Source: Amia ocellicauda
Taxonomy: Eukaryota; Chordata; Actinopteri; Amiiformes; Amiidae
Direction: 5' to 3'
Assembly (NCBI RefSeq): GCF_036373705.1
Contig: NC_089857.1
Location: 40,248,784-40,312,783, forward strand
Length of the DNA stretch: 64,000 bases
Position 1 is the first letter of the stretch. Every line of letters starts with the position of its first letter. Below the pieces are notes generated by a model that was not told the origin of the DNA, did no database searches, and saw only the letters and a program-made list of their open reading frames with translations. The position numbers and the translations under genes were made by a program. Shown piece by piece: positions 9,701 to 49,052 of this stretch.

Positions 9701-12700
9701 CAACAAGGGGCTATAATATTCTCTTATATGAATGCAGTCAAGCTAGTTCTTTTAGTTTTATTACTTTAAAAAAGATTTTTTAATTTCAACATATATAATA
9801 AATAGGATTTTTACTTTGTTAAGTATTTATTATTTTAAATTACATATAGTATTAACAACACCCTTTCAAATACATTGTGGAAGAGCCTAGAAGCATCTTA
9901 TTGAGCTCTGGCCAATCATACATCAGGTGCTGAAATATGCGAAAGATTCTTCTCCTACACCGCTGTCAGCAACACTGGCCCCGATTTGCTCTGTGACCTA
10001 CTGACCCTGTGGACATTAGACCGAACTGCACTTCCTGCTTTCTGGACAGCATTGATTTCTCCGATTAGAAAAGGCATCCAGTGTTTTCGGTTGTGTAACC
10101 CTGCCTAAAAATGTTTTGTTTCAGCGATTATGCAAGGCTCAGCAGATTAATATACTTTTCTTTGTGCCGATTCCTTGATTGCGTAACCTCAGCTTGCACC
10201 ACTCTGCGTAGAAAATATAACCACATGTGAAGTACCGTGTGCCCCCCTTGAACAGGCCCTCGTAAATAAATTGGTGGATTTTAAGAACGATTGTTTGATA
10301 GTCGTTAAAGCATGTGTGCCTCCTCTAATCACCCTGTGTAACAAGCTTGCAGGTGATTTATATGCATTGACACTGTGATCTGTTTGTAGTCATACATTGT
10401 AATCCATGCGCTTTTTTAAAGAACCATGTCTAAATCTGCTACTTATATTCAATTAATTTCTTTAAAGCGGCGATCAGCTTGAACACTACCTCAACGCATT
10501 TTTTTTTTATGTCATTTGAATCTGTAAAGCAGCTTTAATTAGATGGCCTTGCTAATTAATTGTAAAAAATGGGAGAACAGAGCGGAGCCGTCAGTCTGCC
10601 TCAGGGTCTGCAGGGCTGCTGTTTGTTCTGCAGCTTTAGACGTGCGGTGAGGGCCGCCCGACAGCCAGCACGGCGGCAGGAGCCAAGGCAGCTGGCCGGG
10701 GTTCACCTGCTCACAGCGGCCTGGCAGGGGAGGCTGTGAGACACAAAGGACTCCACTGCAGAGTGAGGCTGATAGGATCAGTCTGTCTCTCTCTCTCCCC
10801 CCACTCAGTGACTGGACACGCCAGCTCTGACAACACACGGCCTGCCTCTCCATTGTGTTTGCCACAGTTACAAAACGACCACCAGCGGAGGAGGAGTCGG
10901 CCGGACAGCCACAGATTCAGCTGTGCACAGAGTAACCAAGGCTTTACGAGTCTCAAAGTTACTGAGCACTAAAGTTGCTTCTGATAGGTCAGAGCCAGGC
11001 AGCTCTTCAAACACAGAGGGGAGATCAAGAGCCAAAAACATTGATTGTTTGCAAATTTATCACCTCTGGGTCTCCAGCCTGCCTAATGAAAGGATTATCT
11101 GTTGCATAAGGATTGCAGCCTCCATGTGGTACAGGTCTAATAACAGCTTTGTTCGAGTGCCTCAGTATTTATTTTTGAGAAGTACTATATTCAGACACAT
11201 TTTGAAGTTGCAATAATAGTCCTCAGTTCTGCCCGTCCCTTCACTTGCTGAAAGCACAAATACCTGCAGCGCTGACTTACTGGCAGTGGAGCGAGTCACT
11301 GATTTCAAAGCTCTGTTCACCTGTAGCAAGGATTACCCCCAAAATTAAACTGCCTTCTTAGTCACTAATGACAACATTTTTGCAGCTGCAGGCAAGTTAA
11401 TTTACCCATTTTATTGTTATGAAATTGAATGCAAATGTATTATAATCTCTAGCAAGACACGTACAAATATGAGCAGAGTCAAAATATTGAATCCCATTTC
11501 TGTGGGTCTGCATCAATGCAGAGTATTTCAAATATTGTCAACAACACCTACCTTTCAGATCCATCCAATTAGGGACTATAAGCTCAAAGCCAATTAAAAC
11601 AACTTTTATTGGGTTCTGGTCTGTAAAGAATGGATTTGCATACTTGTAGTTTGTTAAATCACAAAGTAACTGTTAGAAATTTAAACAAACGAAACAGCCA
11701 GGTCCATATGGGCCGCGCTTTAAGCCTTTTGTGCCGTGATGGATGCACACACATAAATTGTTGTGTCTGTGAGGTCAAAATCTATGCAAGGCCAGGCACT
11801 CTCCATCCTCCTTTCAATTGCAAAGCAGTCATTTGGGCAAAGTGTGCCCTCTACACCCCATTAAACCCCCCCACTCCCCTCGCCCCCTGCACACTTTTTT
11901 TTTTTTTTTAACTCTTGTGTTTGTGAAAGGGACCGGCTCAAATTTCCTTTGCAGGAGCAGCTGTTGCTGGGCCGAGCCAGGCTTTTCAGAGCGGCGCTGG
12001 GCCCCTTTTTGATGGGGCTCTCCTGCCTCCTTTGTCTCACCCCCCCACACCCCTTTGACGGGGCTTCAGGAGTGAGCTGCTCCTTTTGTCTGCACTGCGG
12101 GCGAGTTCCACCCTGATTTAGGCATTGTTCAAGCCTCAAGCCGTTAGCACGTGCCCGCATCCCCCTAATCTTTTCATTTCACCCCAGGATGAGGCAGCTG
12201 TTAGCGGCACAGTCATAGCACAGCTGTCGGCCACAGCGCCCAGCCCAGGAGACCCCCGCATTCAAGTCAAACAATGAAGCGGGGGGGAAAGGAGGTGTGG
12301 ATTGAGGAGCCACAGAATTGTTTTAATGCAGACTATATTTCTGCAACAGTTGGCAGCACGTGCTACAATTTGTTGCTCTGACTGGAAATGAACATCTTGG
12401 TTTTGGTTGCGGCATAATTCTTGTAGTCAGGGGGCAGTGCGTCTATTTTCCTGGGTAATAATGACATTATACCCCTACTGAATTATAGGGTATTAGTTGA
12501 GCATGCAGAACACGGATTATTGCATCTAGCAAAGCATCCTGTATGGGTTATGCTATTCCTTTAGACATTTCAGATCACAATAAAACTCCTGAAGGTCGCC
12601 TGCCAGAATGTTAGCCAAATGTAAAGCAGGGGAATGTTATGATTAACTACATCTAAGATTATATTTTGTCTCCCAGCATATCCCAGATAAAGGAATGCAA

Positions 12701-23096: not shown

Positions 23097-24110
23097 TTAG
23101 TACTTGGTGGCAAAACCCTTGTTGGCGATCACAGAGGTCAGACGTTTCTTGTAGTTGGCCACCAGGTTTGCACACATCTCAGGAGGGATTTTGTCCCACT
23201 CCTCTTTGCAGATCCTCTCCAAGTCATTAAGGTTTCGAGGCTGACGTTTGGCAACTCGAACCTTCAGCTCCCTCCACAGATTTTCTATGGGATTAAGGTC
23301 TGGAGACTGGCTAGGCCACTCCAGGACCTTAATGTGCTTCTTCTTGAGCCACTCCTTTGTTGCCTTGGCTGTGTGTTTTGGGTCATTGTCATGCTGGAAT
23401 ACCCATCCACGACCCATTTTCAATGCCCTGGCTGAGGGAAGGAGGTTCTCACCCAAGATTTGACGGTACATGGCCCCGTCCATCGTCCCTTTGATGCGGT
23501 GCAGTTGTCCTGTCCCCTTAGCAGAAAAACACCCCCAAAGCATAATGTTTCCACCTCCATGTTTGACGGTGGGGATGGTGTTCTTGGGGTCATTCCTCCT
23601 CCTCCAAACACGGCGAGTTGAGTTGATGCCAAAGAGCTTGATTTTGGTCTCATCTGACCACAACACTTTCACCTAGTTCTCCTCTGAATCATTCAGATGT
23701 TCATTGGCAAACTTCAGACGGGCCTGTACATGTGCTTTCTTGAGCAGGGGGACCTTGCGGGCGCTGCAGGATTTCAGTCCTTCACGGCATAGTGTGTTAC
23801 CAATAGTTTTCTTGGTGACTATGGTCCCAGCTGCCTTGAGATCATTAACAAGATCCTCCCGTGTAGTTCTGGGCTGATTCCTCACTGTTCTCATGATCAT
23901 TGAAACTCCACGAGGTGAGATCTTGCATGGAGCCCCAGACCGAGGGAGACTGACAGTTATTTTGTGTTTCTTCCATTTGCGAATAATCGCACCAACTGTT
24001 GTCACCTTCTCACCAAGCTGCTTGGTGATGGTCTTGTAGCCCATTCCAGCCTTGTGTAGGTCTACAATCTTGTCCCTGACATCCTTGGACAGCTCTTTGG
24101 TCTTGGCCAT
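23097..24110 (-). pseudogene. Tc1-like transposase with one internal stop
   Basis: A DDE transposase of the Tc1 family would cut and paste the surrounding element. From Met at 24,110 the frame reads 145 residues with the N-terminal paired-like helix-turn-helix DNA-binding region (start [20 protein letters not shown]) and basic linker. It then hits TAG at 23,673-23,675 and continues in the same frame for about 191 more residues to the stop at 23,097. The catalytic triad is intact in the second part: [17 protein letters not shown] and DLNPIENLW (DD34E). Family members have Trp at the position of the stop, so a single G-to-A change explains it. Total length of about 337 codons fits the family. 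The copy is otherwise undamaged, so it is probably young, but it should not make full-length protein. Confidence 0.93.
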
Positions 24111-29121: not shown

Positions 29122-30052
29122 TCATCGCTCAGGCAGCGTGATGGCGGGCACCCACTCGTACACATTGCGGCTCTCCTCGCAGAACAAGCTCAGCTTCTCC
29201 AGAGATGGATCTTTCCACGCATCTGCACTTGGGTTCTGTTGGAAGTAGATAAAGAGTTGGGATTTAGTGCATGGGTTAAAGAGAACAGAACATGCAGCTG
29301 GGTGTCAACATAGAGCCAACCCTCACATCAGGAGAATAGTGGCAATACATACCGTGACAAGAATGCAGTGAGTGTCTTTGGGTTCGCCAGCCTCATCGCT
29401 GCCAACCAGCTCTGCCAGGCGCTGTGTGTCGTTGACCCGGACAATGTTGATGTCGTTGTCGAAGCAGAAGGCCTGGATGAGGGTGAAGTGGATCTGCAGG
29501 GCAATGTCACACTCATACTCCTCATCAGTCGCCAGCACGCAGAAAGCCACGCTGTCTGGATCACTGCAAAATAGAAATGAACAAGAAGATGAGCATTTTG
29601 CAGATATCGGACAGATGCATGAACACTCTGCAGTTTGCATTGAGGAGCACGTGTAGCAGACCGTAGTGATACTTACACATTCATGACTTTTGCGGATTCA
29701 TAGACTCCCACCGTCAGGTTGTCTTGTTTTTTAGCAGAAAGCAGAAGTTCCTCGAGGGCTTTGCCAGCACACTGCATCCTGCAAGAATGAAAAAGACAAC
29801 TGGTAAGACTCCGCATTTAACAGTGCATAATCTGCATCACATTTGCGCAAGTTAAATCCATTATGCTTTTAATAAAACACGCTCGGTTCAATTACCTGGC
29901 AAAACGCTCAGATTTAACTACATCTAAAAGAGCTGAACTATAGTAAGGTGAAATCCACATTAAAAACAACAAAGTAACCGTATCATCAATCGTATTTACC
30001 TGTCACTGGCTTCAACGGTGATTTCTTGGCCGTGAATTTCCTCCAGAGTCAT
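29122..30052 (-). CDS. gadd45g: GADD45 gamma (copy 1)
   Basis: Growth-arrest and DNA-damage-inducible protein, a small acidic L7Ae-fold protein. The family binds MAP3K4 (activating p38/JNK), PCNA, p21 and CDK1/cyclin B in nucleus and cytoplasm. Four coding exons on the minus strand: 30,000-30,052, 29,677-29,778, 29,353-29,563 and 29,122-29,235, all with GT/AG borders and compatible phases. They give 159 residues, the same length as human GADD45G. The start is MTLEE, the family N-terminus. The core [18 protein letters not shown] is diagnostic, and the last exon ([19 protein letters not shown]) fits the gamma paralogue rather than alpha or beta. A TATA box (30,149-30,156) and CCAAT box lie upstream. 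This copy keeps the ancestral four-exon structure that copies 2 and 3 have lost. Part of exon 2 and intron 2 is shared with copy 3. Confidence 0.96.
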
Positions 30053-30640: not shown

Positions 30641-30860
30641 TGGCTGTCATCTGCAGATTGAGAGGCACACGCCGCTGTTTTGCATGTGTAAAGGCAGCAC
30701 AATGGGCAGGCGGGCGTGTGGCAGTTGGGGGTTTGGGGGTATTTCGCTGAGGCTCACAATAGCGGCAGTGCTCCACCTGTCTCTGTGGGCTGGGGGAGGG
30801 CTGATGTATGATCTGTCTTTGCAGTCTGCTCCATCTCGCTGCCCTGCATTGGGGCAGATG
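30641..30860 (+). promoter_or_regulatory. cluster module A (octamer/SOX/E-box)
   Basis: Member of a six-copy family. In order: GGCACACGCCGCT (30,664), TTTTGCAT then GTGTAAAG (30,678-30,693), GCACAATGG with SOX core ACAATGG (30,699-30,705), GGCGTGTGGCAG, E-box CACCTG (30,774-30,779), GGGGGAGGG (30,792-30,800) and CTCCATCTCGC. It lies about 0.5 kb upstream of copy 1. No transcript or protein is implied. Confidence 0.6.
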
Positions 30861-32955
30861 GGTGTGCTCTGCAGCAGCACGGGTCTGAAGCTGTGCATGT
30901 TGATGCGTCCTGGACGCTGAATAATTCAACACATAAAGATTTGTATCACTATGTCACAGCAGAATGGCCTCGCTGTCATTAAGTTCTGCTTTAGCCTCCA
31001 AAAAAGAAAACAAGCAGAGCAGCAGCATGAACTCAGTGATTCATATGACACTCAATGCATTTTGCACATCAAATACAAAGATATCATAACCTAGGCTTGT
31101 GTGTATCTTGAACAGCAAACATTATATTTGGACAAATTAATGAAATACGTCCTTAGGTATTGGATGTGCTCTTATTCTTCTGCTATAAAATGAGATACTT
31201 GTTAATATTATGCACAAGGTTGTGTTGGCATTGTCTTAATTAGCATGCACTGTAAATAAACCAGAGTCTCTATGGTGATTTCAGCTGGTAATGGGTGCAC
31301 TTAGAAAATGTAACATTGGTTCGGAAATGAAAACTGTAACCAAGCTGCCCCCTGCTGGTGATGGAGTTACACAACATTTATTTTGAACTCTTCCAGGCAG
31401 TGCAACAATATATCATCTTCAGGATGTAAATCAATTATACATTAAAATATATTTTAATATGAATATAAAGCAAATAAACTACATATATATAGAGAGAGAT
31501 TGGTATAGATAAATATAGGTATAGACCGACAGACAGACAGACAGACAGGTAGATAGAGAAAGATCACAAAATTGTATACAAGTTTGAAAATTGTATAGTG
31601 CAACACAAATAGTTCAATTCGTGATTTTAGCTTTCATTCTACTGTAACAATAAGAGTCCATCTGAAGCCCCCAAACATTTGTCGAATTACAGGGCATTCC
31701 TCCAGCACTGTGGTACACCGGCTGCTGCTCTAATGAAAAGTGGGTGCTCAGCACCCAGAGTGCACCTTCACCCTACAGCAGAGGTCCTAACTGTGCCAAT
31801 GACATCCTGGTTTCATTCCAGATCATCTACAAATCCCAGGAAAATGACATTTCACCCCTCTGCTTCACTCGAGCTTCTCATACTCTTGGGCATTTGCCAG
31901 AACAGAGAGCCACAGTGTCTGGACCGCAGGTGAGTTCAGATTCAAACTGACACCTGGATTGAGTTCAATCAGCAGAAATGAGACTCACACATTCCCATTT
32001 TAGCAGACTCCCACTGCCAGACAATCTTTGCTTTGTGCCGACAACGGGGGCCCTTACAGCGCTTTGCCAGAACAGGGCTTCATGATACAGACTGAAAAGT
32101 GAAATGGTTACATTCTGGGTCCATTTTGATTTAATGTTTTAGTAAGAAATAATTGTGCTTTCCTTATGTAAAGGTTAGCTTTCCTAATGCAGCTGCAGAG
32201 GTACTTCTCATTCTGGGGTGTCAGGGATGTGTATTTGAGTGGTAAAATATGTATTTAAAGTCTGTATGACCAGGAACACTGCAACTGATTGACTGTGGCA
32301 CAAGAATCATAATCCTTTAGCTTCATTGTAAAGTATTTATCTGGTTTATAATGTATCATGCAGTTTGTTGCACCATTGCATTGCTTATTTTACTTGCAGT
32401 AAACAGAGTATAATGTTCCCTTATATATAATTGTATTATTTATGAATCAGCACTGATTGTAATGGGCATTTCATTTTAAGTATTTTCATGTATTTTAATT
32501 TTTATTCATCCACTATACTTTCCAGTTCATCTTGCATTGAAGTAAATGTGATCCTTCTTTTGCTAGAAGAACTACACAAAGGCAGGTGTAGCAAACAAAA
32601 AATGTCTAAAGAAACCATTAACCACAAGAAAATACTTGAGTTGGAAGAATAAATGGTCATGGATTTTAAGTGTCTGCCATCTAGTGGCAATCGTTCTTAT
32701 AGCCATGGTGTAACTTCTATTACAAAACTAGAAACTGTATATTAATAGTCGGCTGTACCAGTAAGCACAACTGAAAAACAAACTGTTAAAATTAATATAA
32801 TTTTATATGGACTTTAAAATGACCTGAATTTAGTTCCAATAATTTATGAAAGGCAGCTTTATGTTCTTCTGTATTCGTTTGTGGATGGATAACTGAACCG
32901 AGTGCTTATAGTGCGTTTCCAGTGCCAGAGAAAGTAATAACCCATCAGTACCAGG

Positions 32956-32989
<34 letters not shown>

Positions 32990-33050
32990 CGGTACACAAG
33001 TCACGGTGGATATTGTCCATAGCATAAATACCACAAATGTATAATTCAAA
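30861..33050. other. intergenic DNA between GADD45 copies 1 and 2
   Basis: Mostly AT-rich sequence without supported exons. It holds a short CAGA tetranucleotide run (31,528-31,548) and a (GT)n microsatellite (32,958-32,986). I find no further copy of the octamer/SOX module here. Confidence 0.6.
32958..32986. repeat. (GT)n microsatellite
   Basis: An uninterrupted GT run of about 14 units just downstream of the 3' end of GADD45 copy 2. Confidence 0.95.
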
Positions 33051-33052
33051 TA

Positions 33053-33058
33053 TTTATT
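33053..33058 (-). terminator. poly(A) signal of GADD45 copy 2
   Basis: AATAAA on the minus strand about 480 bp after the stop codon of copy 2, in a context (ATATTTATTTAGCAAAG on plus) like that of copy 1. Confidence 0.65.
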
Positions 33059-33538
33059 TAGCAAAGACACACGTTGAAAACATTTAGAAATGACAAGTCA
33101 TGAAACAATGATTTTCAGTCTTTGAGTGCATCAATGAAATGTGGTCTTCAAAGCCGATGAAACGATCCACTCTCAAGACTCCTACTTCCGTTAAGAATCC
33201 CAGGTTAGAATAAAGATCTTGAATCTTGAAAGTTCACATCAAGTATACGATACAAAACGTTATCCTGGATCAGATTTCAAACGCAAGTCTTCCCTGGTGG
33301 GAGGTTGTGCAGCCCTGCGCAGCTCTTCCGTGCAGAACACAAACCCCCGCCGCTTCACAGTGTCCCGTCCCGGGCAGCAGCGTCCACTGGCAACGCGGGC
33401 ATCGGGCACCTCCGGTCTGCCGTCTCCCCGGCTCCGCTGAGGATCATCCCGGGTGTCAGGTCTGACGCGTCACCCGTGCCTTCCAGGGTGACAATTCTCC
33501 CAAGTGCAACCATCTCCAGCCAGAGATGTGGGCGCAGC

Positions 33539-34188
33539 TCAGCCTTCAGGCAGGGTCACGGCGGGCACCCACTGGCTGAAGGTGCGGGTCTCCTCACAGA
33601 AGCCCTGCAGCTTCTCCAGAGCCGGGTCCTCCCACGAACTGTCTGCGGGGTACTGCAGCAAAACACGGCGGGGAGTATGAGCATCGGATGCACAATTAAG
33701 ATGCATTGGACATGGTTTAGAAATGCACATCTGTGCAAGAAGATCATGCCCTGCTGGGACACGTACCGTGATGAGGACGCAGTGCGCGTCTGCGGGCTCG
33801 CCGGCCTCCTCGCTGCCCAGCAGCTCTGCCAGGCGCCGGGTGTCGTTGACCCGCACGATGCTGATGTCGTTGTCGAAGCAGAAGGCCTGGATGAGGGTGA
33901 AGTGGATCTGCAGGGCGATGTCACACTCGTACTGCTCGGTCGCCAGCACGCAGAAAGACACGCTGTCTGGGTCGCTGGGAGGGAGAAACAGCATCGATTA
34001 AAATCCAGTTGGTTTCGGGACAGTTGAAGGCTAAATAAGCCGAGAACCAGCCGCTCACAGCAGTGACTCCGAGCCGCGCACACTTACTCATTCATCAGCT
34101 TGGCAGCCTCGTAGACCCCGACGGTCAGCCGCTGCTCGGAGAGTGCGGACAGCAGCGCCTCCTCCAGGGCTCTGCCGGCGCTCTGCAT
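33539..34188 (-). CDS. gadd45g-like: GADD45 gamma-like (copy 2), short N-terminus
   Basis: GADD45-family protein with the role described for copy 1. Three coding exons on the minus strand: 34,088-34,188, 33,767-33,974 and 33,539-33,652, with correct splice sites and phases, give 140 residues. The core [18 protein letters not shown] is intact. The last exon (SWEDPALEKLQGFCEETR) is gamma-like but clearly diverged from copy 1. The first Met (MQSAGRALEE) aligns with the first codon after the exon 1/2 junction of copy 1, so the usual MTLEE head and its intron are absent. No in-frame upstream Met exists; instead a (GGTGC)n tract fills the 5' UTR between the ATG and a TATA box. The middle exon and its flanks are identical to copy 3 over 240 bp. 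Its first intron is unlike that of copies 1 and 3. Confidence 0.92.
33748..33987 (-). repeat. 240-bp conversion tract (copy 2 arm)
   Basis: Perfect reverse-complement match, 240 of 240 bases checked by eye, to 38,215-38,454. It covers the middle exon, its acceptor (with 13 bp of intron) and its donor (with 19 bp of intron). Identity stops abruptly on both sides. Confidence 0.97.
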
Positions 34189-34189
34189 G

Positions 34190-34286
34190 GTGGCGGTGCG
34201 GTGCGGCGGTGCTGCGGTGCGGTGCGGTGCGGTGCGGTGCGGTGCGGTGCGGTGCGGTGCGGTGCGGTGCGGCGGTGCGGTGCGGG
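34190..34286. repeat. (GGTGC)n pentanucleotide repeat in 5' UTR
   Basis: About 16 GGTGC units with a few GGC/TGC interruptions. The tract starts two bases upstream of the copy 2 ATG and lies wholly between that ATG and the TATA box, so it should be transcribed (as GCACC repeats) in the 5' UTR. Confidence 0.93.
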
Positions 34287-34350
34287 TTGAAGCGGATCAG
34301 AGCGGCGCAGCGCAGGGCAGCGGGGTACTGGCGGTGGGCTGCGATCCCTG

Positions 34351-34399
34351 TATTTATAGGGGCTCGGGGGCCGCGCCGGGCAGGCAGCGCGCTGATTGG
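34351..34399 (-). promoter_or_regulatory. core promoter of GADD45 copy 2
   Basis: TATAAATA on the minus strand at 34,351-34,358 and a CCAAT box (ATTGG on plus) at 34,395-34,399, in CpG-rich DNA. The distance from TATA to ATG is about 165 bp, with no splice signals between, which supports an intronless 5' UTR. Confidence 0.8.
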
Positions 34400-34485
34400 C
34401 TGAGAGCAGATCAAAACAATGGCGCATGGCACGCGCCCACACGCCCAACGGCGGCTAAACAAACAGCGCGGGGCATGCGCACTCT

Positions 34486-34578
34486 GCACCTGACACACCC
34501 TGCACCTGGCACACCCTGCACATGGCACACTCTGCACCTGGCACACCCTGCACCTGGCACACCCTGCACCTGGCACAG
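34486..34578. repeat. 15-bp tandem repeat upstream of copy 2
   Basis: About six tandem copies of a 15-bp unit, CCTGCACCTGGCACA, with small variants. Each unit contains an E-box CACCTG. Confidence 0.93.
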
Positions 34579-34798
34579 CACCGGGGTCCATGCACAGCGC
34601 CTACAACCAGCAACAAGAATCATAACAGAAGAGAAAACAGAAACCAAACAGCACAACGCGCACGCTATGCAGCCTGTATCCAGAAACAGTCCTTGTATGT
34701 GTGATTGCATCTGAAAAGTTCAGACAGAGGTTCATTTGAACAACATGGGAATCGCAATGAGATCCTAACGCCATGTGCCAGTGTGAGATGCTCTGTGT

Positions 34799-35210
34799 GG
34801 GGGGTGCAGGGGGCTGTGCTTCAGTGGGGGGGGGTGCAGGGGGCTGTGCTTCAGTGGGGGGGGTGCAGGGGGCTGTGCTTCAGTGGGGGGGGTGCAGGGG
34901 GCTGTGCTTCAGTGGGGGGGGTGCAGGGGGCTGTGCTTCAGTGGGGGGGGTGCAGGGGGCTGTGCTTCAGTGGGGGGGGTGCAGGGGGCTGTGCTTCAGT
35001 GGGGGGGGTGCAGGGTGCTGTGCTTCAGTGGGGGGGGTGCAGGGTGCTGTGCTTCAGTGGGGGGGGTGCAGGGGGCTGTGCTTCAGTGGGGGGGGTGCAG
35101 GGGGCTGTGCTTCAGTGGGGGGGGTGCAGGGGGCTGTGCTTCAGTGGGGGGGGTGCAGGGGGCTGTGCTTCAGTGGGGGGGGTGCAGGGTGCTGTGCTTC
35201 AGTGGGGGGG
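34799..35210. repeat. G-rich minisatellite, 14 copies
   Basis: Fourteen tandem 29-30-bp units of the form GTGCAGGGGGCTGTGCTTCA plus a run of 7-10 G. Units 8, 9 and 14 carry CAGGGTGCTG instead of CAGGGGGCTG. The open frames across it in several phases are artefacts of the repeat. The plus strand has many G-runs and could form G-quadruplexes. It ends directly at module B. Confidence 0.97.
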
Positions 35211-35400
35211 ACGGCACGCGTTGCTGCTCTGCGCGTGTAAAGAGGCGCGAGACAAAGGCGCAGCTCCGGCGCGTGGCATCTGGGGGGGGGGGGGGTCTCT
35301 CTCTTTTTTTCATCTTCCTTCTCTACATCAAAACGCGGCTCCATCTGCCAATACTGCCCTTGTTCTAGATGAGGGAGGGAGGGTCATCTTACTTTCCTGT
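35211..35400 (+). promoter_or_regulatory. cluster module B (degenerate)
   Basis: Starts GGCACGCGTTGCTGCTCT (35,213), then GCGCGTGTAAAG (35,231-35,242) with the octamer degraded, then the SOX/TCF-like GACAAAGG (35,251-35,258), GCGTGGCATCTGG (35,271), a G run, CTCCATCTGCC (about 35,339) and GAGGGAGGGAGGG (about 35,370). The order of blocks matches the other modules. It abuts the minisatellite. Confidence 0.5.
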
Positions 35401-35794
35401 GGGCGACCTCACACAGATACCTCCACAATCGCCACTTTGCATTGCTGTAATTAAAAAAAGTTGGGGGAATCAAATTATTTATTTATCTATGTGATTTCAA
35501 CTGCAGGATTTATATGCAACCATTATTGAAGAATATGTGTGTTTTTTTATTAGGAATGACTTTGATGCGAGTAAATAACTTTCCCTGCGGCATTTAAAAA
35601 AAAACACTGTAGCGGACATTTGGCACAAGTCGAAATGTGGCACATACATGTTGTGCATTAAAACACGGGATAGCATAGACGCGCCAAACTTAACCCAAAG
35701 CGCGATATTTGAGTTCAATGCAGAATTGTTGAAACCTAGTGAATGAAGGCCATTATGAGCAGACATAATGAAGAAGTTGCCCAGCGCGGCAGAT

Positions 35795-35965
35795 TGGCGA
35801 GGCGCACGCTGCTCATATGCATGTGTAAAGCCAGTCTGATAATGGGCGACTGCGGCCTGCGGGGCTGCACAAAAGACACGGGTTTTTTTTCATTGCAGCT
35901 CTGGACCACCTGTCACTATGGCTATTTTGCTGAAACTGGGGGAGGGTCTTTGCACCACTTTAGGA
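35795..35965 (+). promoter_or_regulatory. cluster module C
   Basis: GGCGCACGCTGCTC (35,801), ATATGCATGTGTAAAG (35,815-35,830), GATAATGG in the SOX position (35,838), TGCGGCCTGCGG, E-box CACCTGTC (from 35,907), then GGGGGAGGG (35,938-35,946). Confidence 0.55.
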
Positions 35966-36629
35966 GCCTATCTTTGGTCCGATACAGATTTGTCACCGTC
36001 ACAGTTGCACGCGTCTCTGTGTCTACTGTTTTTGAGGTTTATTTCTTGTGTTTGTTGGCCTGAATTGATTCCACAGTGCCAGTGCACGTCCTGTAATGAA
36101 ATCATGCCAAGAGTTGTAATGTCCTGACTGTTGACGAATGCAATCTGGGCAGCTGGAGGGCCACAGCTAGTGGTCTTGGGGAGGAAACGTAATGCCAGCT
36201 TCATACTTCTATTTCCACGAATGGTCATTTATAAGCTATTTGGTTTAATTGAACAGAAACACGCAGAGATATTCATTTCTATGTGGACTACGGCATCATC
36301 AGCAAGTACTGAGGCAGTGTTGTTTCTGTTGGTCACAGAATAATAATCTGCAGTTATCACCAAACATGCAGGAGGCAGAGTGAAGTTTAGGGGAGTTTCT
36401 TCTGGTGGCGGGGCGCCTGAGCATGAACCACGAAATATAGGGAAAATGTACACATTTGATTACAAGCAAAGTCTTTTTTTTAATATTGTGCACGAATATA
36501 TAGGTATACCAAAGCATTATCACAGCCTAATAAAACCAAAGGCTACACTACACACCGTGATCTTGCACACACATCAGTGCATGACTCCTGTGCGGCCTGC
36601 GCTTGGCTGCTGCTGATTTTAATCTGCTC

Positions 36630-36835
36630 TTAATTGCCATTGCAACAGGCACGCGCTGCTGTGCATTTGGAAGGCTCGTGCAACAATGGCATTCTTTCTT
36701 TCTTTCTGTCTTTTTTTTTGGGGCGTGTGGCATCTGGAAGTCTGACCCATTGTTTTCCTCTCCCTATCTCTCCTCATAGCACCACTCTTCCATCTGTTCA
36801 CTGGTGCCATCAAAGTTGGGGGAGGGTGTGTGTAT
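36630..36835 (+). promoter_or_regulatory. cluster module D
   Basis: GGCACGCGCTGCT (36,648-36,660), GTGCATTTGGAAG in the octamer position (36,661), ACAATGG (36,683-36,689), a CTTT microsatellite insertion, GGGGCGTGTGGCATCTGG (36,719), CCATCTGTTC (about 36,790) and GGGGGAGGG (36,818-36,826). Confidence 0.6.
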
Positions 36836-36997
36836 ATATATCCATCTACTTTTCTAAATGTTTCCAATTAAGTATTTCTTATATTAAAAACTGACTCTTG
36901 TATATAGACCATACAACATAAATTAACTGTCTAGGTGTAAAAGTGCAAGTGAATTATCGAAAAGCATGATTTTGCCAACATGTAACCATTTTCCAAA

Positions 36998-37022
36998 TAT
37001 ATATATATATATATATATATAT
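36998..37022. repeat. (AT)n microsatellite
   Basis: An uninterrupted AT dinucleotide run between modules D and E. Confidence 0.95.
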
Positions 37023-37224
37023 GTTTAATTTGAGATTAAAAAACTTATTTTAAAATGAGTGTTATTGTCTTAAAATATATGATTAAAAACGAATGGGACT
37101 GACTTAGTAAAACAAACAAACAAACGAACAAACACATTTGACAAAAACCTGCCACTTTCGGGTGCAACAGACACTTTTAGGACTTCAATAGCAGGGTGAT
37201 GTTTCGTGTGGCAAAATGCAGCAG

Positions 37225-37350
37225 ATTGTGCTCGGCACACGCTGGTAATTTGCATTTGTAAAGAGGGGTTTAATAAAGGCAGGAATTTCGGCCAGAGGGT
37301 CGGACAATGGGGTCGTTTTACTGCACCTGCAGTAGGGGTGTGCATGCTGG
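37225..37350 (+). promoter_or_regulatory. cluster module E
   Basis: GGCACACGCTGG (37,234), a perfect octamer ATTTGCAT (37,248-37,255) running into TTGTAAAG, SOX core ACAATGG (37,304-37,310) and E-box CACCTG (37,324-37,329). The GGGGGAGGG block is missing or eroded. It lies about 0.6 kb upstream of copy 3. Confidence 0.6.
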
Positions 37351-37850
37351 GGCCCGGAGCAGCAATCCATAGCGACTGGATGAGGACGTCTGCTAATAAA
37401 TCAATAAATAATAATATCTGTAATAGGCTATATGTGAGGCAGCCTAAACACAATGACATCACAATCAATGGTTTAGAGCATTGGTGGTCAAAATATAACG
37501 CATTAACTTTAACATCAACCTTCAACCGTTTTAATACGCAGCCTACGACACTGACCAAGCTGCACTCAAAACACATCAGATAAAGGACACATAGACCTAC
37601 TTAAAACGTTTTTCCCCAGAAACTTTTATTGGGAATGTCTGGCACAGCATCGAGCATCCTATCTGTCTTAATAGGATAGTAAATGTTTAATTCATTTTAG
37701 AACTCATATGACTCATGCTCTTACATTGGGGATATTTACATTGCGCATGAGCGGGCAGAGAGCGCGCGAGCGTGACCCCTGACCCGCCTCTGCAGGCCCG
37801 CCACGAGCCGCGGCGCAGTGCGCTCATTAGCATCACAATGCCCCCGGCAG

Positions 37851-37901
37851 CCAATCAGAGGGCCGGACCCGTGCACGGGGGGGATTGAAATTGTATAAAA
37901 A
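37851..37901 (+). promoter_or_regulatory. core promoter of GADD45 copy 3
   Basis: CCAAT at 37,851-37,855 and TATAAAAA at 37,894-37,901, in a CpG-rich island. The ATG follows 84 bp after the TATA box. Confidence 0.85.
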
Positions 37902-37984
37902 CGGAGCTTGCGGACTTCAGAGATCATTCTGCTTTTGGATTTGCTGGAACTGCCTTCATCTGACCATCCGCGGTTTGTGCCATC

Positions 37985-38806
37985 ATGACTCTGGAAGAAG
38001 CGCCGCAGCTGGAGGAGGCCGGCAGCGCCGGGACGCAGGGAGCCGGCGCAGCGCTGGAGGAGCTCCTGCTTTCTGCTAAAAAACAAGACAACCTGACGGT
38101 GGGAGTCTATGAATCCGCAAAAGTCATGAATGTGTAAGTATCGCTACGGTCTCCATGCAAACTGCAGAGTTGCTGCGTCTGTCCGATATCCGCGAAATGC
38201 TCATCTCGTTCCTCTTCTCCCTCCCAGCGACCCAGACAGCGTGTCTTTCTGCGTGCTGGCGACCGAGCAGTACGAGTGTGACATCGCCCTGCAGATCCAC
38301 TTCACCCTCATCCAGGCCTTCTGCTTCGACAACGACATCAGCATCGTGCGGGTCAACGACACCCGGCGCCTGGCAGAGCTGCTGGGCAGCGAGGAGGCCG
38401 GCGAGCCCGCAGACGCGCACTGCGTCCTCATCACGGTACGTGTCCCAGCAGGGCGAGAGAAACGCTGCTCTAGTTTATAATCGTTGGGAGCCTTCATTTA
38501 GAACTGGTCTATAAGCCTTTATAATGTATGATCTATAATCGGTTGGCAGCTCCAAAAGAGTAACTTGTATACACTTGCTGGAGTGAAGATCTTGATAGTC
38601 TTGTTAATGCAGCTTTAATCTGAAGTGGTAATGATCAGATGTGAAATGGCTGTTCACCGCTGAACTGACGTCTCTCCGGCCGTTTCCCGCAGAGCCCCGC
38701 CGAGAGCCCGAGCGGCGAGCCGGCCCTGGAGCAGCTGCGCTCCTTCTGCGCGGAGAGCCGGCGCCGCGGTGACTGGCTGCCCGCCGTGGCGCTGCCTGCT
38801 CGCTGA
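37985..38806 (+). CDS. gadd45g-like: GADD45 gamma-like (copy 3), mosaic gene
   Basis: GADD45-family protein with the same role as copy 1. Three coding exons, 37,985-38,133, 38,228-38,435 and 38,693-38,806, give 156 residues with correct GT/AG borders. It starts MTLEE and aligns with copy 1 across the former exon 1/2 junction with no intron, so that intron was lost precisely. From 38,066 to 38,142 (end of exon 1 and first bases of the intron) it is identical to copy 1, and the rest of that intron is also related to copy 1. From 38,215 to 38,454 it is identical to copy 2. Its last exon ([19 protein letters not shown]) is the most diverged of the three, with several substitutions in the otherwise conserved WKDP segment. 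The frame is open and the core intact, so I treat it as functional. Confidence 0.93.
38066..38142 (+). repeat. 77-bp conversion tract shared with copy 1
   Basis: Perfect match, in inverted orientation, to 29,668-29,744, covering the end of the exon encoding [20 protein letters not shown] and the first nine bases of the intron. Patchy but clear similarity continues through the intron. Confidence 0.95.
38215..38454 (+). repeat. 240-bp conversion tract (copy 3 arm)
   Basis: Perfect inverted counterpart of 33,748-33,987. Confidence 0.97.
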
Positions 38807-39167
38807 AGCGGACCTGGCTTGTCTCTGGAAATGGTTAACCTTCATCTGAACATCACCCAGGAATACGTGGGTGACAAGGCCACACATCCCCGGATGAGCC
38901 CGAGCAGGAGCCGCGGCGACGCCAGTGCGAGAGCGCTGCCCGCGCCCGGGTTGATGCCCACCTGCGGCAGAGATGCCCTGCTGACCTTCGGGCAGCCGAC
39001 CATGGCGAGACTGGAGAGGCCTGTGTGCGGGGATTTGCAGGAAAATGCTTGAAAAAAATACAGGACGGACTTGTAGCGTTGATTCAATGACCAAGCAAAG
39101 CCGCAGCGCCCGGACCTCCTCCCGTGAGTGGATCTGGTTCACACAATTGTGCTTTTTAAACCTATCC

Positions 39168-39173
39168 AATAAA
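39168..39173 (+). terminator. poly(A) signal of GADD45 copy 3
   Basis: AATAAA 362 bp after the copy 3 stop codon, followed by a T-rich stretch. Confidence 0.75.
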
Positions 39174-39489
39174 AAAGAAAACGGACGTTTGTGTCACTCG
39201 TTAATGCTCCTTTAATTACATGGCTAAATGTTAGTATAATGGAAACCAAGATGGTAACTATTGTTAAGCCACTAAAGACGGTTCATATGCTTTACATTCT
39301 TAATCCATAAAATGTGGCATTTTGGTAAATGACATAATCCAATCAAACCTATTTACAGGAACCCAGTACTGTCTTCTTGATTCATACAGGTGCCATTTCC
39401 AGGTGTTTACATGCATTCTCAATCTACACACTTTTGAGAAATAAACCATGAAAACGCAGTCTGCATAGATTTGCAGTGTAAGGAGTCCA

Positions 39490-39645
39490 TGGCCCTCACT
39501 GATTTGCATTTGCAAAGGGAGCACAATGGCCGGCTCCCCCTGTCACAGCCCTCCCTACACCGTTGCCCCTTTCAGTCAAATGTTTCCACAGCCCAACTGC
39601 TCCATCTGCCAGCTGCAGCGAGTGGGGGAGGGAACCACAGCAGTG
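39490..39645 (+). promoter_or_regulatory. cluster module F
   Basis: Perfect octamer ATTTGCAT (39,502-39,509) followed by TTGCAAAGG, SOX core ACAATGG (39,523-39,529), CCGGCTCC, CCATCTGCC (39,602), E-box CAGCTG (39,610-39,615) and GGGGGAGGG (39,624-39,632). The leading GGCACACGC block is eroded to GGCCCTCACT. It lies about 0.3 kb beyond the 3' end of copy 3. Confidence 0.6.
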
Positions 39646-47827: not shown

Positions 47828-49052
47828 CACACTCACCTAAAGGATTATTAGGAACACCTGTTCAATTTCTCATTAATGCAATTATCTAACCAACCAATCA
47901 CATGGCAGTTGCTTCAATGCATTTAGGGGTGTGGTCCTGGTCAAGACAATCTCCTGAACTCCAAACTGAATGTCTGAATGGGAAAGAAAGGTGATTTAAG
48001 CAATTTTGAGCGTGGCATGGTTGTTGGTGCCAGACGGGCCGGTCTGAGTATTTCACAATCTGCTCAGTTACTGGGATTTTCACACACAACCATTTCTAGG
48101 GTTGACAAAGAATGGTGTGAAAAGGGAAACACATCCAGTATGCGGCAGTCCTGTGGGCGAAAATGCCTTGTTGATGCTAGAGGTCAGAGGAGAATGGGCC
48201 GACTGATTCAAGCTGATAGAAGAGCAACTTTGACTGAAATAACCACTCATTACAACCGAGGTATGCAGCAAAGCATTTGTGAAGCCACAACACGTACAAC
48301 CTTGAGGCGGATGGGCTACAACAGCAGAAGACCCCACCGGGTACCACTCATCTCCACTACAAATAGGAAAAAGAGGCTACAATTTGCACAAGCTCACCAA
48401 AATTGGACAGTTGAAGACTGGAAAAATGTTGCCTGGTCTGATGAGTCTCCATTTCTGTTGAGACATTCAGATGGTAGAGTCAGAATTTGGTGTAAACAGA
48501 ATGAGAACATGGATCCATCATGCCTTGTTACCACTGTGCAGGCTGCTGGTGGTGGTGTAATGGTGTGGGGGATGTTTTCTTGGCACACTTTAGGCCCCTT
48601 AGTGCCAATTGGGCATCGTTTAAATGCCACGGCCTACCTGAGCATTGTTTCTGACCATGTCCATCCCTTTATGACCACCATGTACCCATCCTCTGATGGC
48701 TACTTCCAGCAGGATAATGCACCATGTCACAAAGGTCCAATCATTTCAAATTGGTTTCTTGAACATGACAATGAGTTCACTGTACTAAACTGGCCCCCAC
48801 AGTCACCAGATCTCAACCCAATAGAGCATCTTTGGGATGTGGTGGAACGGGAGCTTCGTGCCCTGGATGTGCATCCCACAAATCTCCATCAACTGCAAGA
48901 TGCTATCCTATCAATATGGGCCAACATTTCTAAATAATGCTTTCAGCACCTTGTTGAATCAATGCCACGTAGAATTAAGGCAGTTCTGAAGGCGAAAGGG
49001 GGTCAAACACAGTATTAGTATGGTGTTCCTATTAATCCTTTAGGTGAGTGTA
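47828..49052 (+). mobile_element. Tc1/mariner element, short terminal repeats
   Basis: TA-flanked element of about 1.2 kb with roughly 30-bp inverted ends containing ACTCACCTAAAGGATTA and AGGAACACC. It is a different Tc1 lineage from the element at 22.9 kb, as shown by the short ends and a distinct transposase. It sits between creb3 and nim1k. The exact terminal dinucleotide differs between the two ends, so the borders are certain to within about two bases. Confidence 0.92.
47978..49018 (+). pseudogene. Tc1-like transposase, premature stop near C-terminus
   Basis: A DDE transposase of a Tc1 lineage. The frame from 47,978 runs 319 residues to TAA at 48,935-48,937. The same frame then continues without another stop for 26 codons to TAG at 49,016-49,018, which is where the family normally ends (KAVLKAKGG-type tail). 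The stop is therefore probably one substitution. The N-terminal helix-turn-helix region (ISQSAQLLGFSHTTISRV) and the catalytic motifs WSDES, FQQDNAPCHK and DLNPIEHLWD (DD34E) are all present. All catalytic residues precede the stop, so the shortened protein might retain some function, but this is not shown. No other lesion is visible, so the copy is probably young. Confidence 0.93.

Follow-up and report, generated by a model that had tools for sequence, protein, structure and literature searches.

What makes a cluster of GADD45G-type genes carry the same ordered series of short motifs six times over, always on the same strand? This question is raised by the gadd45g cluster of Amia ocellicauda, contained in a stretch of 64,000 nucleotides (hereafter the window; it belongs to contig C8, the genome measuring 988 Mb). 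Between 30.6 and 39.6 kb of the window, six related segments, m1 to m6, are interspersed among three GADD45G-type genes. All six are read on the plus strand, although genes A and B, on the minus strand, run opposite to gene C, on the plus strand. The segments were found at the positions, and on the strand, given by a preliminary description of this DNA, and the order of blocks claimed there is kept wherever the blocks are present. Coordinates of modules, genes and related features are reported in Table 1.

Table 1. Features of the gadd45g cluster. Positions are those of the window; the E value is that of each module when left out of the profile.
Feature	Position	Strand	Remarks
m1	30655..30802	+	about 0.5 kb upstream of gene A TATA box; E 2.7e-12
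m2	35204..35383	+	about 0.85 kb upstream of gene B TATA box; E 6.3e-9
m3	35790..35949	+	B-C interval; E 7.9e-12
m4	36638..36829	+	B-C interval; E 1.5e-7
m5	37223..37365	+	about 0.53 kb upstream of gene C TATA box; E 3.4e-6 (head only)
m6	39480..39635	+	about 0.7 kb beyond gene C stop; E 0.035; least secure member
Gene A, GADD45-type	29122..30052	-	approximate span, first exon read by eye; CCAAT 30217, TATAAA 30156
Decayed fourth GADD45 gene	31877..32085	-	between A and B; parts of two exons, with stops
Gene B, GADD45-type	33539..34188	-	140 amino acids, conceptual splice; CCAAT 34399, TATAAA 34358
B tract around exon 2	33748..33987	-	240/240 bases identical to C tract
CATTGTGATGCTAAT	37826..37840	-	C proximal promoter, just upstream of CCAAT box; identified by reading
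Gene C	37985..38806	+	156 amino acids, conceptual splice; CCAAT 37851, TATAAA 37894
C tract around exon 2	38215..38454	+	identical to B tract

Anatomy of the modules

The core of a module consists of GGCRCRCG, TGCATnTG and TGTAAAG, in this order; a SOX-like site and an E-box come next, and in most modules GGGGGAGGG as well. The GGCRCRCG head is present in five of the six modules, m6 being without it, and lies 17 bp from TGCAT in m1, m2, m3 and m5, and 14 bp (3 bp shorter) in m4. The spacing between TGCAT and the TGTAAAG block is 6 bp in all six. The SOX-like AYAAWGG comes 12-16 bp after that block, the CAYCTG E-box 51-108 bp further, and GGGGGAGGG or GAGGGAGGG, present in five modules, 18-31 bp after the E-box. 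GGGGGAGGG itself is found in four modules; m2 carries GAGGGAGGG, and m5 has neither.

The blocks are not equally exact in all copies. An exact TTTGCAT is found in m1, m5 and m6. In m2 the octamer is eroded to CTCTGCGC, the place of TGCATnTG reads TGCGCGTG, and the SOX-like site is ACAAAGG. TGTAAAG is kept in four modules and replaced by TGCAAAG in m6 and TGGAAGG in m4, while AYAAWGG and CAYCTG are present in 6/6. As for exact ACAATGG, only m1, m4 and m6 have it where expected, and in m5 it lies 31 bp past that point. GCGYGTGGCA is found in half of the modules. Overall, m5 combines a strong head with a degenerate tail, and m6, headless, has its octamer, SOX-like site, E-box and GGGGGAGGG all present. 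The motif list of the preliminary description stands for order and strand, but it overstated exactness: TTTGCAT holds in 3/6, GGGGGAGGG in 4/6, and ACAATGG at its place in 3/6. A 29-bp minisatellite (34795-35210, 14.3 copies, 98% matches) ends beside the head of m2.

Over both strands of the 64 kb, GGCRCRCG followed by NBG occurs five times, and TGCATNTG followed by B, R and AAG four times, in every case within modules. GGGGGAGGG has five occurrences and CCAYCTGYC eight, four of each within modules, and ACAATGG nine, four of them in modules on the plus strand and one more in m4 on the minus strand. Mean pairwise identity between modules reaches 0.72-0.85 in five of the six blocks; the GCGTGTGGCA block has 0.47, and sequence outside the blocks 0.34. 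Since the blocks were picked from an alignment with m1 as ruler, this contrast is partly circular, as is the closeness of m1 to the other copies.

The modules are related copies

Relatedness was measured by a leave-one-out procedure, in which a profile trained on five modules was tested on the sixth. Modules m1 to m5 scored 22 to 41 bits and m6 8.6 bits. With the same models, the best chance scores in 20 shuffled 64-kb windows ranged from 4.8 to 8.5 bits (7.0 for the model leaving out m6). We also ran a self-BLAST on 8,082 bases, mostly non-coding, with 100 dinucleotide-shuffled versions as control. Six pairs of at least 35 bits were obtained, five of them joining two modules; the shuffles averaged 0.09 such pairs and never gave more than one.

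These results bear on the possibility that common motifs co-occur here by chance, or that the sites were gained convergently rather than by common descent. E-boxes and GC-boxes are indeed frequent, and one of the 100 shuffles yielded a pair, its only one, of 45.4 bits, whereas the best real pair scored 44.0 bits. Moreover, when the model leaving out m6 was run on 100 further shuffled windows, one of them reached at least 8.6 bits (9.1 bits). Chance does not, however, come near the scores of the other five modules, nor the five module pairs of at least 35 bits; the head spacing is near-constant, and six copies would all share a strand once in 32 by simple arithmetic. We consider chance or convergence to be extremely improbable. 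As m6 is weak by profile alone, its membership rests also on its pairing with m1 (31 bp, 87% identity) and on its block order. We concluded that m1 to m6 are related copies, m6 less securely so. Shuffled sequence, which the preliminary description had named as a possible source of equally good alignments, did not equal the real module scores, m6 being borderline.

Scanning the window with the profile revealed no convincing seventh copy. The best other match, of 6.8 bits (11807-11853, minus strand), exceeded the 5.5 bits reached in 20 shuffles, yet was equalled in 8 of 100 further shuffles, and was therefore taken as chance.

The family is, as far as searched, restricted to the gadd45g locus

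Several related non-coding copies within 9 kb could also be the trace of a dispersed repeat (a short interspersed element, a miniature inverted-repeat transposable element or similar) inserted several times at the locus. Pattern searches, whose counts are lower bounds, were carried out over the 988 Mb with at most three mismatches. GGCACRCGCTGCTNNTTTGCATKTGTAAAG gave three matches, all of them modules of this locus (m1, m3 and m5), and its reversed control none. A looser head pattern gave four, m1, m2, m3 and m5, each without mismatch, and its reversed control two. Used as DNA queries against the genome, m1 and m3 each matched only themselves; as these queries also miss the other modules, only close copies are excluded in this way. 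Because the head patterns match nothing but this locus, the modules form a locus-specific family, and the dispersed repeat was rejected as far as recognisable copies are concerned; we judge it very improbable altogether. As far as searched, the family is restricted to the gadd45g locus, and the locally duplicated family that the preliminary description had tied to the GADD45G cluster is borne out, in its several homologous copies (by profiles, self-BLAST and shuffles) as in its confinement to the locus. The genome-wide repeat check it had called for likewise revealed no repeat family, the DNA queries being insensitive.

A shorter core, TGCATNTGNAAAGN{2,12}AYAAWGG, has 12 matches in the genome, against one for the control: four here (m1, m3, m5 and m6) and eight elsewhere, the latter scoring at most 12.3 bits against the module profile. 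One of them, TGCATGTGCAAAGAGTGTCACAATGG, near the core of m1 and m6, lies at an unrelated place (C20, 11616871-11616896, locus L035) and scores these 12.3 bits. Among frames of at least 90 amino acids in about 20 kb around this site, only a Tc1-like transposase was recognised, and no host gene; no family search was made there.

What the modules may do

Each of the three TATA promoters has a module within about 0.5-0.9 kb (m1 for A, m2 for B, m5 for C), m3 and m4 are located in the divergent B-C interval, and m6 beyond C. These near-promoter positions, the block-wise conservation and the motif content together point to enhancers, and the modules are most likely regulatory. By comparison with consensus motifs, we take the TTTGCAT-like block for a putative POU site, AYAAWGG for a putative SOX site and CAYCTG for a putative proneural basic helix-loop-helix (bHLH) site. 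The GGCRCRCG block of five modules may be of HES type, the consensus of which is GGCACGYG-like. This HES/HEY view was missing from the preliminary description, which had read the other sites much as we do.

On this basis we think it probable, if well short of certain, that the modules arose by local duplication of an enhancer in which POU, SOX, proneural and HES inputs are joined in a Notch-off switch for cell-cycle exit; the neural Notch-off function, taken by itself, is plausible. The six segments most likely go back to a single composite cis-regulatory element, some 145-190 bp long, which was duplicated locally in the cluster and whose copies were retained mainly at their binding sites. Each module would be a candidate target of POU, SOX, proneural bHLH and GC-box factors, with GGCRCRCG as the HES/HEY repressor site. 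In progenitors, HES would silence the module. Once Notch signalling drops and the proneural, SOX and POU factors come into play, gadd45g would be induced and the cells would leave the cycle. The array would supply dose and robustness to the three promoters.

The literature, consulted as listings and passages, contains several results of this kind. Gadd45g is reported as repressed by Hes1, on the basis of an expression array and chromatin immunoprecipitation (ChIP)-chip (PMC3924840), and as induced by Mash1, with lower expression in Mash1 mutants (PMC2330019). Human GADD45G rises with the burst of ASCL1 upon Notch block by DAPT, in a paper that also presents GADD45G as marking cells that exit the cycle in neurogenesis (PMC10111863). 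In zebrafish, gadd45gb.1 is listed among the markers of a cluster of developing tectal neurons, together with dlb, insm1a and pou2f2a.1 (PMC8869500), and goes up alongside sox4a and sox11a under gamma-secretase inhibition (PMC12383255). These results agree with a switch that HES would keep off and that proneural, POU and SOX factors would turn on. In addition, GADD45G has been linked to an enhancer deletion specific to humans (hCONDEL; PMC9042895). No published description of a six-module array was found in these listings and passages.

Several points weigh against the neural switch. The factors were named from motif consensus sequences, and E-boxes and GC-boxes are common. The copies are unequal: exact TTTGCAT is limited to half of them, the octamer of m2 is lost, m6 has no head and m5 no tail. 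The POU-SOX arrangement is not wholly unique, given the eight core matches elsewhere, and m6 alone is within reach of shuffled sequence, as seen above. Finally, the evolutionarily conserved OCT4 site of the human GADD45G promoter, documented by ChIP-polymerase chain reaction (ChIP-PCR) and supershift, gives indirect support, but it is classed among sites with no SOX2 motif, GADD45G is absent from the ChIP-on-chip list of the same study, and its authors propose OCT4 as a repressor, knockdown of OCT4 raising GADD45G (PMC2873957).

This binding of OCT4 and the effect of its knockdown would suit another reading, in which the modules are locally duplicated gadd45g regulatory elements with a mainly non-neurogenic input: stress, pluripotency (OCT4-type POU), somite clock (HES/HER) or gonadal. 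Those tissues, too, could make use of the GGCRCRCG, octamer and SOX sites. Oscillating Hes1 cyclically represses Gadd45g in embryonic stem cells (PMC3924840), and timely expression of mouse Sry requires Gadd45g (PMC9066659). The CAYCTG E-boxes present in all six modules argue in the other direction, as does zebrafish expression, which favours cells becoming neurons (PMC8869500, PMC12383255), and we hold a mainly non-neurogenic input to be unlikely.

Genes of the cluster and history of the array

The three best solved relatives of gene C are GADD45 gamma proteins, and genes A and B were typed as GADD45G by their similarity to C; by this comparison the cluster proteins are of the GADD45 gamma type. 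When the whole genome was searched with the C protein, 11 matches were obtained: 8 fall in the cluster, 1 on C25 in a gadd45a-like gene and 2 on C28 in a gadd45b-like gene, the two labels being read from translations. No modules were found within about 9 kb on each side of these two genes (best scores 1.7 and -0.4 bits, respectively).

Between A and B lies a decayed fourth GADD45 gene. The part of its first exon gives 38.6 bits and E 2.8e-11, no shuffle exceeding 8.2 bits; for that of the second the score is 11.6 bits and E 0.0036, against 6.9 bits for the best shuffle. Such a relic would be expected if each module had come with a GADD45 gene and some genes had since been lost, the leftover modules being functionless, decaying by-products of gene duplication; that m2, m5 and m6 each lack some parts would agree with this. 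Yet no GADD45 relic was found beside m3 to m6, the one relic present has no detectable adjoining module, and identity in five of the six blocks (chosen, it is true, after alignment) is far above that outside them. We regard this origin as improbable, and retain local duplication of a probable enhancer.

Genes B and C are placed head to head, their TATA boxes 3.5 kb apart. Around exon 2 they share the identical 240-bp tract of Table 1, while the exons flanking it are about 66-68% alike. Such identity between inverted copies, next to exons that are less alike, is best read as a recent gene conversion, which we consider likely. Neither this tract nor the decayed gene had been part of the preliminary description. 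Set against the mixed strands of the genes, the shared strand of the modules suggests one of two histories, both speculative: multiplication of the modules independently of the genes, or an inversion of C in place, between m5 and m6.

A bolder version can be proposed, which we hold to be possible but doubtful. An old, rigid HES-POU-SOX-E-box composite would have multiplied to six copies around gadd45g, all retained on one strand, whatever the orientation of the genes; as a Notch-off switch it would drive the divergent pair, whose coding exons would be kept alike by gene conversion, and C may have been flipped, m6 being its original module. If this were true, and if modules were present in the same interval of other teleosts, with one copy matching the human GADD45G octamer site, the array would be a vertebrate-wide, countable switch for cell-cycle exit. 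Independently of this version, six related modules at one locus make up a natural variant series, which reveals the sites and spacings that are kept and those that are dispensable. Through swaps or deletions of copies, the grammar of such a switch could be put directly to the test, and it is for this that we find the array of moderate interest.

Other features were recorded. CATTGTGATGCTAAT, in the C proximal promoter, resembles the canonical SOX-OCT composite. A pentamer (GCGGT) array is found at 34193-34285, just upstream of the ATG of gene B. A kinase gene at 49.8-50.5 kb has its relatives among the MARK/SIK/AMPK kinases, and we take it for NIM1K. Two frames, at 23097-24110 (minus strand) and 47978-48937 (plus strand), presumably encode Tc1/mariner-like transposases; a frame near-identical to the second is present in another locus, L039. 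No tRNA was detected in the window, and no structured RNA matched Rfam at gathering score between 28 and 41 kb.

Comparison with known systems

Neural enhancers combining similar sites are known. The nestin enhancer is of the SOX-POU type, and Mash1-Brn enhancers, with POU site plus E-box, were reportedly described by Castro in 2006. Like these, the modules would bring together an octamer, a SOX site and/or a proneural E-box in one element. They differ in that octamer block and E-box are about 73-129 bp apart, TGTAAAG stands at a fixed spacing, and a HES-like block is added. The genes of the Drosophila E(spl)-C share an enhancer code. Duplicated or shadow enhancers have been described as well (PMC7556877). 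In both cases, as would be so here, several copies of one site code serve a gene or a cluster; the present array differs by belonging to vertebrate GADD45G genes and by having several candidate copies in one divergent intergenic interval.

Closer to the genes themselves, the human GADD45G promoter also places an octamer upstream of the gene, an evolutionarily conserved site to which OCT4 binds by bandshift and by ChIP-PCR. Unlike the modules, it is a promoter site as opposed to an array, and is described as having no SOX2 motif (PMC2873957). In guppy and Poecilia formosa, a pair of GADD45G-like genes (137 and 151 amino acids, three exons) is placed head to head about 4 kb apart, within an interval that also contains NIM1K. 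Exons 2 and 3 of that pair are identical, whereas B and C share their tract at exon 2 and differ in exon 3; regulatory modules, six in the present cluster, are not mentioned in the part of its description available (PMC6829149). As a pair, B and C probably date far back in teleosts, the guppy genes being laid out like them. Locally duplicated enhancers are a known kind of element, of which the gadd45g module array would be a new example.

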